Shown piece after piece: positions 34,376-64,000 of a DNA stretch of 64,000 nt (position 1 is its first letter; each line of letters begins with the position of its first letter). The notes below the pieces were generated by a model that was not told where the DNA came from, did no database searches, and worked only from the letters and a program-made list of their open reading frames with translations. The position numbers were made by a program, and so were the translations under genes. The stretch comes from Pseudoalteromonas sp. '520P1 No. 423' (GTDB taxonomy: Bacteria; Pseudomonadota; Gammaproteobacteria; Enterobacterales; Alteromonadaceae): assembly GCF_001269985.1 (NCBI RefSeq), contig NZ_BBZB01000001.1:1550001-1614000 (forward strand), read 5' to 3'.

Positions 34376-34584
34376 TTATGCTCCGAAGCAAATTATTGTT
34401 CAAAAATTGAATAACAAAATCAAGAAAGATTGGAATTATACATCAGTTCATGGTATAAAGCGCGCGTCCTTTTTACAATTAAAATCTAAAATTTAAGTTT
34501 TCACTCTGAAAGCTACTATAAATTGGTTGGTTTTGTTGTATTTAAGAGACACTAAACCGATATATTAATAATTAATATATTAAC

Positions 34585-34685
34585 TAAAATCACACACACG
34601 TCGACACATACACTTGGGTGCACGTTTATTTTTATTCAATAAAAGTGTTAGTGATATGGGATGTGTGGAGGCCTAACCCAAAATT
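34585..34685 (+). ncRNA. t44-type rpsB leader (S2 autoregulatory element)
   Basis: In the map-rpsB gap, just before rpsB. Two interleaved pairings form a pseudoknot: acacat (34604-34609) with atgtgt (34661-34666), and ttgggt (34614-34619) with acccaa (34676-34681). The segment gtgtggaggcctaaccc is also the conserved part I recall from the t44 RNA / rpsB leader of gammaproteobacteria, where S2 binds and represses its own operon. Boundaries are approximate. The rest of this 327-base gap (34376-34584) is AT-rich and shows no gene. Confidence 0.7.
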
Positions 34686-61021: not shown

Positions 61022-61135
61022 GGTAGTCTTATTGGTCCTCTCGCAACAATAGTTCGTGAACCTGGTCAGGCCCGGAAGGGAGCAGCCACAGCGGATGATT
61101 TGTGTGCCGGGATGTGGCTGGTAAGACTGCCACCC
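61022..61135 (+). ncRNA. ffs: 4.5S (SRP) RNA
   Basis: The RNA component of the signal recognition particle, which binds Ffh and targets membrane proteins co-translationally. The ends pair as ggtagtctta / taagactgcc, giving the long hairpin of about 114 nt. The Ffh-binding core is conserved: aggcccggaagggagcagcc on one side and gtgccgggatgtggctgg on the other. A T-run at 61146-61152 after the helix would end transcription. It is intact, and it is the attachment site of the transposon that starts just behind it. Confidence 0.96.
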
Positions 61136-61151
61136 AATATTCCACTTTTTT

Positions 61152-61177
61152 TGTCGTTTTCACCATAAGTTGGCATA
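61152..61177 (+). repeat. Transposon end with a TnsB-binding-like site
   Basis: Reads TGTcgtttt then caccataagttggcata. I-F3 ends, from memory, start TGT and carry repeated sites close to ACCATAAxxTGATA, so this is a recognisable but diverged terminal site. I found no clear second or third copy before tnsA, only about 70 bases away, so the end is short or degenerate. Confidence 0.65.
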
Positions 61178-61220
61178 GTCTATTTTTAAATACATTCATT
61201 GTATGAAAATAAGCAATGTT

Positions 61221-61878
61221 ATGTATCGCCGAAATCTAAAACACTCTCGCGTAAATAATATTTTTAAGTTTGCCAGTCAAAAAATGAAAACTGTTTTTTA
61301 CAGTCGAGTCATTTTTAGAATTTGATACCTGCTTTCATTTTGAATATTCCCCTGATGTAATTAGTTTTGAATATTCCCCTGATGTAATTAGTTTTGAAGC
61401 TCAACCTTTAACTTTTAAATATCAATTTGATGATAAAGTCCGAAGGTATACACCAGATTTTTTAGTTACTGATAAAAAATATGGCGAACGCTTCATTGAA
61501 GTTAAACCCTCAAATAGAACGATTAATGAAGAATTTAGACTTAGGTTTTCAGCAAAGCAGCAGCAATCTATGTTATTAGGCAAACCGCTTATTTTGGTTA
61601 CAGAACAGCAAATCCGTATAAACCCAATTTTAAACAACCTGAAATTATTACATCGCTATTCAGGCTTTCAATCTTTAGCGCCATTGCAATACAAGTTACT
61701 AGAATTAATTAAATCATTAGGCATGGTACGTATTATACAGATTGTGCAATCCCAAAATTTACCTGAAGGAGAAGTGTTAGCGTCTGTTTTAGGACTGATT
61801 TCGCATGGATTTATTGATACTGATTTAATTAATTCAAACTTTGGTATTCAATCAAATGTTTGGCTAGCAAATGAGTAA
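61221..61878 (+). pseudogene. tnsA: TnsA endonuclease, frameshifted, with an internal 27-bp duplication
   Basis: TnsA cuts the 5' strands at the transposon ends. The N-terminus (MYRRNLKHSRVNNIFKFASQKM) is in one frame up to the T6 run at 61294-61299; the rest (from TVESFLEFDTCFHFEY) is in the next. Removing one T restores a 218-residue protein. Catalytic residues are present after repair: Glu in VESFLEFD (29/33), D79 in YTPDF and K95 in FIEVK, the restriction-enzyme-like E-D-ExK set. A 27-bp tandem copy (61338-61391) duplicates nine residues FEYSPDVIS just before them. An in-frame ATG at 61203 is an alternative start. The C-terminal part (LILVTEQQIRINPILNNLKLLHRYSGF) is normal. Sequencing error in the T-run cannot be excluded. 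Confidence 0.82.
61338..61391 (+). repeat. 27-bp in-frame tandem duplication in tnsA
   Basis: Two identical adjacent copies (61338-61364 and 61365-61391) beginning ttttgaatattcccctgatg, each encoding nine residues. A further ttttgaa follows, the original sequence at which slippage or unequal exchange could have started. Confidence 0.95.
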
Positions 61879-63724
61879 AGATAGCTTAGAACAAAGCGGG
61901 TTTTCAGATGAATTATTGAATTTACCACAAATAAAACATGAAGATGCATCTGATTTTCGTGAAAGAGATTTAGCGAGTTATCCTAAAAAAATCCAATATG
62001 AAGTTTCCAAACGTTATGATTATATCAAATGGATAGAAAGTCACTTAATAGGGGGCTGGACAAAGAAAAATTTAATGCCTCTAATAAACACAGAACCAAA
62101 GCATAACACAAGTACTCGACCATACTGGCGAACAGTAGCTAGATGGTGGCAGAGTTTCAATAAGTCAGAAAGAGATATGCTTTCTTTGATCCCAAAACAC
62201 GCTAAAAAAGGTAATTGTAATACAGTATCTTCTTCAGATAAATTTTACGAGCAAGCAGTTGAACGATACCTGGTAAAAGAAAGGCCATCAATAGCAAAGG
62301 TTTATCAGTACTATAGTGATATTATTCGATTAGAAAATGAAACTATAGTTGGCGAAAAAATTAAAGCGCTTTCATATAAAGGTTTTTATAAAAGAATTAA
62401 AAAACTCCCTAAATATGATGTTATGGTTGCAAGATATGGTAAATATTTAGCTGATATGGAGTTTCAAGCCATTTATGGCCATCGCCCTCCAACTCGAATA
62501 CTAGAGCGTGTTGAAATTGACCATACACCTTTGGATTTGATTTTATTAGATGATGAGCTATTAATCCCTTTAGGTAGACCATTTTTAACGCTATTAATTG
62601 ATAGTTATAGCCGATGCATTGTTGGCTTTCACTTAGGGTTTAAAGAGCCAAGTAACTACTCTGTTTTAAAAGCACTACTAAATGCGATAAAACCAAAAAG
62701 CTATATTAGAGAACAGTTTCCATGCATTGAAAATGAGTGGCCATGTCATGGTAAGTTTGAAACTTTAGTAGTTGATAATTGCGCTGAATTTTGGAGTAAT
62801 AGTTTAGAACAGTCATGTTTAGAAATTGGTATCAATGTTCAATACAATCCAGTAAGAAAACCTTGGCTAAAGCCTATGGTAGAACGTATTTTTGGTACAA
62901 TTAACCGAGAACTATTAGTAGATATTCCAGGCAAAACATTTTCAAATATCCTAAAGCGAGCAGAATATAACTCAGCTAAAGATGCGATTATGCGTTTTTC
63001 TACTTTTAATGATCTTTTACATCAATGGATAATTGATGTTTATCATCAAGATAAAGATGCACGAGCACGTTTTATTCCGATTTTGTCATGGAAAACAGGT
63101 TATCAACAACTCCCACCATTAAAAGCATCATTAGAAGATTTAACTAAATTAGATATTGTATTAGGTCTTAGTGAATATAAGCAGCATAGGCGCGGTGGAA
63201 TTCATATACATAACCTTAGGTATGATAGTGATGAACTATCTGATTATCGAAAAATGTATGGTGAAAAAAGTGGCGAGACTGATAAATATTTAATAAAAAC
63301 AAACCCAGATGATTTATCTTCAGTTTACGTTTATTTAAATAAGTTAAGCCAATATCTAAAAGTGCCATGCATAGACCCTACTGGTTACACTCAAAAGCTA
63401 AGCTTGTTAGAACATCAAATAAACCTTAGATTACAACGTAATTATATTAATAATAGTGTCGATTTGGTTAGTTTAGCCCGTGTAAGAATAGCGATAAATA
63501 ATCGTATTGAGCAAGAAATCAAAGTTATTAAAAAAATGGCCTCAAAGCGAAGCGTACGCGGTGGTGCTGCATTGGCAAAACATCAAGGGATCAGTAGTGA
63601 CAATAGCACAAGCATTGTAATGGAGAGAGAGGAAGTTAAAGGTGAATTTAATACCATAGCTGAAAAACCGTCAGTAGAAGATGATTGGAATAACCTTATT
63701 TCAGACCTGAAACCTTATTCATGA
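61871..63724 (+). CDS. tnsB: Tn7-like transposase TnsB (DDE)
   Basis: A 617-residue DDE transposase that binds the transposon ends and does 3'-strand cleavage and joining. N-terminal DNA-binding helices (about 30-190) precede the RNase-H-like core. Catalytic residues D217 (EIDHTPLD), D302 (VVDNCAEFW) and E338 (KPMVERIFG) have 85- and 35-residue spacings, the latter the D-35-E pattern. A C-terminal beta domain follows (about 410-480), and a tail that may contact TnsC. The frame is intact. It overlaps tnsA by 8 nt and tnsC by 4. The region RVEIDHTPLDLILLDDELLI closely resembles the I-F3 (Tn6677-like) TnsB sequence I remember; unchecked. Confidence 0.93.
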   Translation: MSKDSLEQSGFSDELLNLPQIKHEDASDFRERDLASYPKKIQYEVSKRYDYIKWIESHLIGGWTKKNLMPLINTEPKHNTSTRPYWRTVARWWQSFNKSERDMLSLIPKHAKKGNCNTVSSSDKFYEQAVERYLVKERPSIAKVYQYYSDIIRLENETIVGEKIKALSYKGFYKRIKKLPKYDVMVARYGKYLADMEFQAIYGHRPPTRILERVEIDHTPLDLILLDDELLIPLGRPFLTLLIDSYSRCIVGFHLGFKEPSNYSVLKALLNAIKPKSYIREQFPCIENEWPCHGKFETLVVDNCAEFWSNSLEQSCLEIGINVQYNPVRKPWLKPMVERIFGTINRELLVDIPGKTFSNILKRAEYNSAKDAIMRFSTFNDLLHQWIIDVYHQDKDARARFIPILSWKTGYQQLPPLKASLEDLTKLDIVLGLSEYKQHRRGGIHIHNLRYDSDELSDYRKMYGEKSGETDKYLIKTNPDDLSSVYVYLNKLSQYLKVPCIDPTGYTQKLSLLEHQINLRLQRNYINNSVDLVSLARVRIAINNRIEQEIKVIKKMASKRSVRGGAALAKHQGISSDNSTSIVMEREEVKGEFNTIAEKPSVEDDWNNLISDLKPYS

Positions 63725-64000
63725 AAACACTTAATCACAATCAAGAAGAAAAGCTAAATAGCTTTATTACTTCGTTTATTGCTCATCCAATACTTAATAC
63801 AATCTTAAATGATTTTGACAGGCTCAGATATAATCATAAATTAGGTGGTGAGCAGCAATGCATGTTGCTTACAGGTGATACTGGAACGGGAAAATCGTCA
63901 GTAATTAGTCACTACCAATCATTAGTTAAATCACAGTTCATAAATGATAAATTGCATAAACCATTATTAGTCAGTCGAATTCCAAGTAAACCCACCTTAG
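63721..64000 (+). CDS. tnsC: Tn7-like AAA+ regulator TnsC (partial, runs off the window)
   Basis: 93 codons of an AAA+ ATPase. ATG at 63721 overlaps the tnsB stop (ATGA). Walker A is GDTGTGKS beginning at residue 52. In Tn7-like systems TnsC forms a ring on DNA, links the target selector (TnsD/TniQ or Cascade-TniQ) to TnsAB, and gives target immunity. The frame is open to the last base. Identification rests on position and the P-loop. Confidence 0.88.
   Translation, partial: MKTLNHNQEEKLNSFITSFIAHPILNTILNDFDRLRYNHKLGGEQQCMLLTGDTGTGKSSVISHYQSLVKSQFINDKLHKPLLVSRIPSKPTL

Follow-up and report, generated by a model that had tools for sequence, protein, structure and literature searches.

Directly behind an intact ffs gene, Pseudoalteromonas sp. 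'520P1 No. 423' carries what we read, with a probability of roughly 90%, as a type I-F3 CRISPR-associated transposon (CAST), I-F3b by its nearest relatives, that was brought to ffs by guide RNA targeting, has since decayed, and now heads a row of older copies. What the sequence shows is its anatomy, the match between guide and target, the insertion distance, the lesions, and the row of remnants; the loss of activity and the order of events are inferred. The element is an additional type I-F3 CAST, of a known kind and at a known site. At the sequence level it confirms ffs as the seat of a guided transposon, and it contributes a Pseudoalteromonas lineage in which guide and target can be read as a pair. 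The window, the whole stretch of 64,000 nucleotides that was analyzed, corresponds to G000:C1:1550001-1614000 (genome position = window position + 1,550,000); for sequence beyond it we used 80 kb of the same contig from position 1608000.

The attachment-site gene ffs, a small SRP RNA gene, occupies window positions 61030..61126 on the + strand and is intact, scoring 75.9 bits against Rfam model RF00169 (gathering score, 40). The left end of the element (61152..61178, + strand) consists of a TGT terminus at 61152, 26 bp beyond the end of ffs, and a TnsB-like site at 61158-61178, and the tnsA start codon lies at 61221, 95 bp past ffs. The earlier note had described just such an end behind an intact ffs, with tnsA-tnsB-tnsC starting within 100 bases, and both descriptions held. 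The 617-aa DDE transposase gene tnsB (61871..63724, + strand) is open, and tnsC, encoding an AAA ATPase of the TniB family, starts at 63721 on the + strand and is cut by the window end at 64000 (whole gene, G000:C1:1613721-1614731). The element measures about 21 kb and runs to G000:C1:1632108, where its right terminus, ACA, ends; both termini, TGT and ACA, are present.

Past tnsC the order is cargo, xre, tniQ, cas8, cas5, cas7, cas6, array, and insertion sequence, with the tniQ-cas module and the short array about 10 to 16 kb past the window end. An xre-like gene at 1621910 and a gene for an ORC-CDC6-like ATPase at 1622358 are followed by tniQ (1624423-1625652; 409 aa, open), cas8 (to 1626781), cas5 (1626783-1627751), cas7 (1627757-1628794, open), cas6 (1628794-1629411, open), a CRISPR array with three 32-nt spacers (∼1629528-1629735), and an IS3-like transposase gene (1631057-1631896). 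The Csy2, Csy3, and Csy4 models are matched by the cas module, and for the Cas8 part there are matches among the PDB Cas8/5 chains. A general Pfam scan identified neither cas1 nor cas2-3 among the 20 ORFs that it covered. The earlier guess of an I-F3 CAST was thus borne out by tniQ, cas8, cas5, cas7, cas6, and an array on the same contig. It had also named a tnsD gene in place of tniQ and cas as an outcome that would refute it. A TnsD-guided Tn7-like transposon lying at ffs by chance would indeed show the common tnsA-tnsB-tnsC, but nothing beyond these genes speaks for it: tnsD was not seen among the ORFs scanned, the sole selector found between tnsC and the array is the 409-aa TniQ, which fits the PADLOC model TniQ_IF over its full length (E=2.6e-141), and cas genes are present together with a spacer that matches ffs. 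The downstream sequence refutes this alternative, and we give it next to no chance.

The cargo behind tnsC comprises genes for an MscS-like protein, a MaoP-like DUF413 protein, an HdfR-like LysR regulator, a glutathione-synthetase-like ATP-grasp protein, and a MATCAP protein; the names MaoP and HdfR are our presumptive assignments. The genome has no other close copy of the HdfR-like gene, the next best being 28% identical, and in three other Pseudoalteromonas examined, hdfR lies beside maoP and far from ffs. The element may have picked up core-type genes as cargo (G000:C1:1616128-1620965, the same as L005:8129-12966).

The nearest PDB matches of TnsB are I-F3 transposases, in line with the earlier expectation that this protein would be of the I-F3 and not the TnsD-guided kind: an artificial PseTnsAB fusion comes first (E=6e-179), then TnsB of the I-F3a element Tn6677 (3.5e-87), with Tn7 TnsB far behind (only 1.7e-18). 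For TniQ and Cas8/5, the nearest structures are 7u5d and 30ga (TniQ: 7u5d, 3.3e-111; 30ga, 9.2e-98; then Tn6677, 7.7e-41), and 7u5d is also nearest to the N-terminal 81 aa of Cas7. We take 7u5d to be Tn6900/AsCAST, PseCAST to be Tn7016, and the nearest matches of our element to belong to the I-F3b branch. On these matches, the element would fall within I-F3b, and it has two traits expected of I-F3b, namely one of the sites of that branch (ffs or rsmJ), here ffs, and diverged guide repeats. It shares with I-F3b ffs CASTs the genes tnsABC, xre (whose usual place in such elements is the same as here), tniQ, cas8/5, cas7, and cas6, the array, the diverged guide repeats, the TC PAM, the ffs target, and insertion about 50 bp past the protospacer. 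In the literature, ffs is described as an I-F3b site (PMC11406308), AsCAST is mentioned among the elements that use it (PMC12774636), and the occurrence of I-F3 elements at ffs, their diverged guide repeats, and their tolerance of mismatches are established (PMC11406308, PMC12774636).

PseCAST, represented by the PDB chains PseTnsAB, TniQ.1, Cas8, and Cas7.1, is highly similar in TnsB, TniQ, Cas8/5, and Cas7, but its Cas8 chain is a single 695-aa protein. Tn6677/VchCAST (I-F3a) has the same module set and is clearly more distant (TnsB, 3.5e-87; TniQ, ∼1e-40). The nearest named relative is Pseudoalteromonas sp. NBT06-2, whose I-F3 element (L009/L163, L093) shares the ffs site, a tniQ-cas-array region 92 to 93% identical, and a TnsC 94% identical, whereas the NBT06-2 tnsA and cas8-cas5 are each in one frame, its left end has three sites, its first two spacers are different, and the DNA upstream of tniQ is different.

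The guide is the last of the three spacers; it starts at 1629676, with a changed repeat before it and a strongly diverged repeat after it. Its protospacer is a 32-nt stretch of ffs (61068..61099, + strand) preceded by the PAM TC at 61066-61067, and the left end of the element lies 52 bp after this protospacer, versus 49 bp in NBT06-2. The earlier note had suggested looking for a last spacer, often atypical, that matches ffs, and the last spacer of this array does match it. Guide and ffs match at 22 of 32 positions, with mismatches at 6, 7, 12, 13, 18, 20, 24, 27, 30, and 32. As a control, an unrelated 32-mer within these 80 kb reaches 21 of 32, so similarity alone is weak proof; we call this spacer the guide because of its position in the array, the periodicity of its mismatches, and its conservation. 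All five sixth positions of the guide are mismatched to ffs (hypergeometric p=0.0013).

The same periodicity recurs among relatives. We found ffs guides in 20 fetched elements, one per genome and the resident included; three were left unpaired with their own ffs, and 15 of the 17 tried were paired. The G030 element was paired by hand and shows the same periodicity; G498, missed by the script's repeat filter, was left out. Across the 15 element/ffs pairs, again with the resident included, mismatches fill 65 of 75 sixth-position cells but 63 of 405 others, the pairs being related and not independent. At positions 6, 12, 18, and 24, 58 of 60 cells are mismatched. Selection for mismatch at these four positions is not needed as an explanation: judged by eye there were few independent changes, and drift at flipped-out bases suffices. 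The NBT06-2 guide departs from that of the resident at position 12 only. Of the 15 pairs, 14 (the resident among them) have TC as the PAM and one, G175, has CC; TC is the PAM reported for ffs elements in PMC12774636. Spacers 1 and 2 had no match in viral contigs when every sixth base was left open.

Together, these features suggest how the element would have come to its present place. Cas6 would cleave the array transcript, and the last crRNA, with its diverged repeats, would load into TniQ-Cascade and pair with ffs despite the mismatch at each sixth base. With TnsC and TnsA/TnsB, insertion would follow at about 50 bp past the protospacer. This point lies outside ffs, so the gene would stay intact and could be hit again.

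Set against I-F3b ffs CASTs, the resident copy stands out by a frameshifted tnsA, only one TnsB-like site at the left end, a Cas8 and a Cas5 encoded in separate frames, and the remnants behind it. The N-terminal reading frame of tnsA (MYRR... / MYRRNLKHSRVNNIFKFASQKMKTV...; 61221..61325, + strand) crosses a T6 run at 61294-61299 and ends at a TGA; the remainder, with the endonuclease part (Pfam PF08722), lies in another frame at 61288..61878 on the + strand and contains a 27-bp in-frame tandem duplication (61343-61396). Because tnsA lies in two frames, an ORF listing shows only a 102-aa TnsA piece. The earlier claim of a tnsA in front of tnsB-tnsC therefore stands as to the presence of the gene but not as to its integrity, since it is frameshifted around the T6 run. 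All 21 related tnsA genes tested have a single frame that spans 190 aa or more, these being the relatives' loci with a tnsA match, minus the window's own and the remnant in G030. In PMC8188705, a TnsA active-site mutant is described as yielding cointegrates.

At the left end, only the site at 61158-61178 was detected (24.5 bits), using a TnsB-site model seeded by eye from other ends, for which the 99.99% quantile over the + strand positions of the 80 kb is 11.8. NBT06-2 has three left-end sites, one of them weak. For VchCAST, efficient integration is reported to require three left-end TnsB sites (PMC10201428).

The third lesion separates cas8 from cas5 at the domain border, between the Cas8 and Cas5 parts and inside neither. 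The split is marked by a run of nine A residues and three copies of an octamer, a repeat expansion, and a TTG codon lies one base after the Cas8 stop. In the nearest solved structures Cas8/5 is one protein of about 700 aa, and NBT06-2 reads through the border in one frame. Over the stretch covered, 23 of the 25 relatives have cas8-cas5 as a single open frame (L172, counted among the 23, is only partial), and the two exceptions are an internal Cas8 frameshift in L178 (G445) and a stop in the Cas5 part in L106 (G498); a break at the Cas8-Cas5 border occurs in none of the 25. L178 and L106 are other ffs elements with damaged guide modules, and such decay is not unique to the resident copy. A natural split at the domain border would offer a direct test of whether guided transposition needs the fusion.

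Given the frameshifted tnsA, the single left-end TnsB site, and the cas8/cas5 split, the resident copy probably no longer transposes itself, to judge from its sequence. One could suppose instead that the element is still active, making TnsA by slippage and using Cas8 and Cas5 as two separate subunits, much as Csy1 and Csy2 work separately in type I-F1. Slippage is conceivable at the T6 run where tnsA breaks, the split falls neatly between the Cas8 and Cas5 parts with the TTG codon just past the Cas8 stop, and tnsB, tnsC, tniQ, cas7, and cas6 are all open. Yet no tested relative shares either break, and only one TnsB-like site is left at the left end. Nor would slippage at the A9 run rejoin Cas8 and Cas5, because the repeat gives a stop in all three frames. 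Moreover, L032 (G164), a more distant relative outside the 21, has its tnsA in two frames elsewhere in the gene and a tnsB match with a stop, so such elements do decay. We consider continued activity very unlikely.

The lesions lie at short repeats and were read from one assembly, which raises the thought that they are assembly errors in an intact element. This we regard as very unlikely, since the identical tnsA lesion and the 27-bp duplication recur in a second copy 21 kb away, and the cas8/cas5 change is a repeat expansion and not a single-base slip.

That second copy belongs to the first of two element remnants, B and C, which lie head-to-tail behind the resident copy, A. The left end of remnant B, from 1632116, has two TnsB-like sites above threshold, and at the A-B junction the ACA terminus is separated by 7 nt from the TGT terminus. 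B contains the tnsA copy with the same two lesions, an apparent short tnsB start after it, then genes for a YafO toxin and a Phd/YefM-like partner, the second of which scores under the Pfam cut-off, and lastly a presumably Rhs-like fragment. Right-end sites at 1634979-1635053 are joined to a third left-end/tnsA piece, C, and similarity stops at 1635266. Because C lacks its own TGT terminus, the case for a third insertion is weaker than that for a second. Behind the row, the region G000:C1:1635799-1639864 has only short matches of 66 to 81% in 13 other genus genomes, and no homologue of it in the ffs regions compared.

From these remnants in a row behind ffs we infer that the site was probably hit repeatedly, at least three times, with each newer copy landing between ffs and the older copy. 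Newer copies would then lie nearer to ffs, so the row would read from young to old away from the gene, and neighboring copies would later have been altered by mutual recombination. The tnsA genes of A and B show 69 differences over 681 columns, with none in columns 6-262 (257 identical columns), and the identical stretch in these broken genes is probably the product of gene conversion, in which one copy overwrote the other.

Could the row instead stem from a single insertion that was duplicated or underwent unequal recombination? An exact 5-bp target duplication is absent (TTTTT stands before the left end and CCTTT after the right end), which would allow recombination to be the cause, either instead or in addition; A and B have the long identical stretch in common; and at the B-C junction the left-end/tnsA piece joined to the right-end sites lacks a TGT terminus. 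However, the A-B junction is what a new copy inserting just upstream of an old one would leave, and beyond their shared stretch A and B show 69 differences in 424 columns. In addition, G030, which belongs to another family, has the same layout behind its ffs-guided element (L044:5230-5610: ACA terminus, 6 nt, TGT terminus, broken tnsA). We find duplication unlikely, albeit worth keeping in view, and the simplest reading remains repeated guided insertion at a site spared by insertion.

Under repeated guided insertion, a reusable site would have a particular fate: copies stack, and older ones are pushed outward and eroded. Neighboring copies may also overwrite each other and so spread a broken tnsA. 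In the literature covered, which included the available parts of PMC10293859, PMC12452197, and PMC8649781, neither a frameshifted tnsA nor stacked copies came up for I-F3 elements, although this is not proof of absence. It is a long shot that the RNA-guided DNA-binding half (TniQ, Cas7, Cas6, array, Xre, and separate Cas8 and Cas5) was retained after the loss of self-transposition; if it was, a programmable DNA-binding complex would persist, working without moving or mobilizing related elements in trans.

A single-protein TnsB scan of genome contigs yielded one locus, and relatives were therefore taken from whole-genome searches. The tniQ-cas region has DNA matches in 29 of 108 genus genomes, weak or short ones counted, whereas ffs has a match in all 108. 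Besides the window's own, 14 genomes have tniQ-cas matches no more than about 26 kb from ffs and on one contig with it (G398, G401, G411, G414, G415 [by a tniQ fragment only], G418, G448, G455, G461, G474, G490, G492, G496, and G498), making ffs a common site in the genus. The module lies far from ffs in G399, G429, and G488 and on another contig in G440, and no ffs guide was seen in the stretches examined of these Pseudoalteromonas I-F3 modules (L109-L112, from G440, G429, G488, and G399). In G407 (L164), a TGT terminus and several TnsB-like sites, right-end-like by eye, lie directly behind ffs, perhaps an inverted or shrunken element. The genome of our strain also has a second, distant Tn7-like tnsA/tnsB pair at G000:C1:1831996-1834462, and a t44 RNA lies within the window at 34573-34677 (Rfam RF00127, 74.9 bits).
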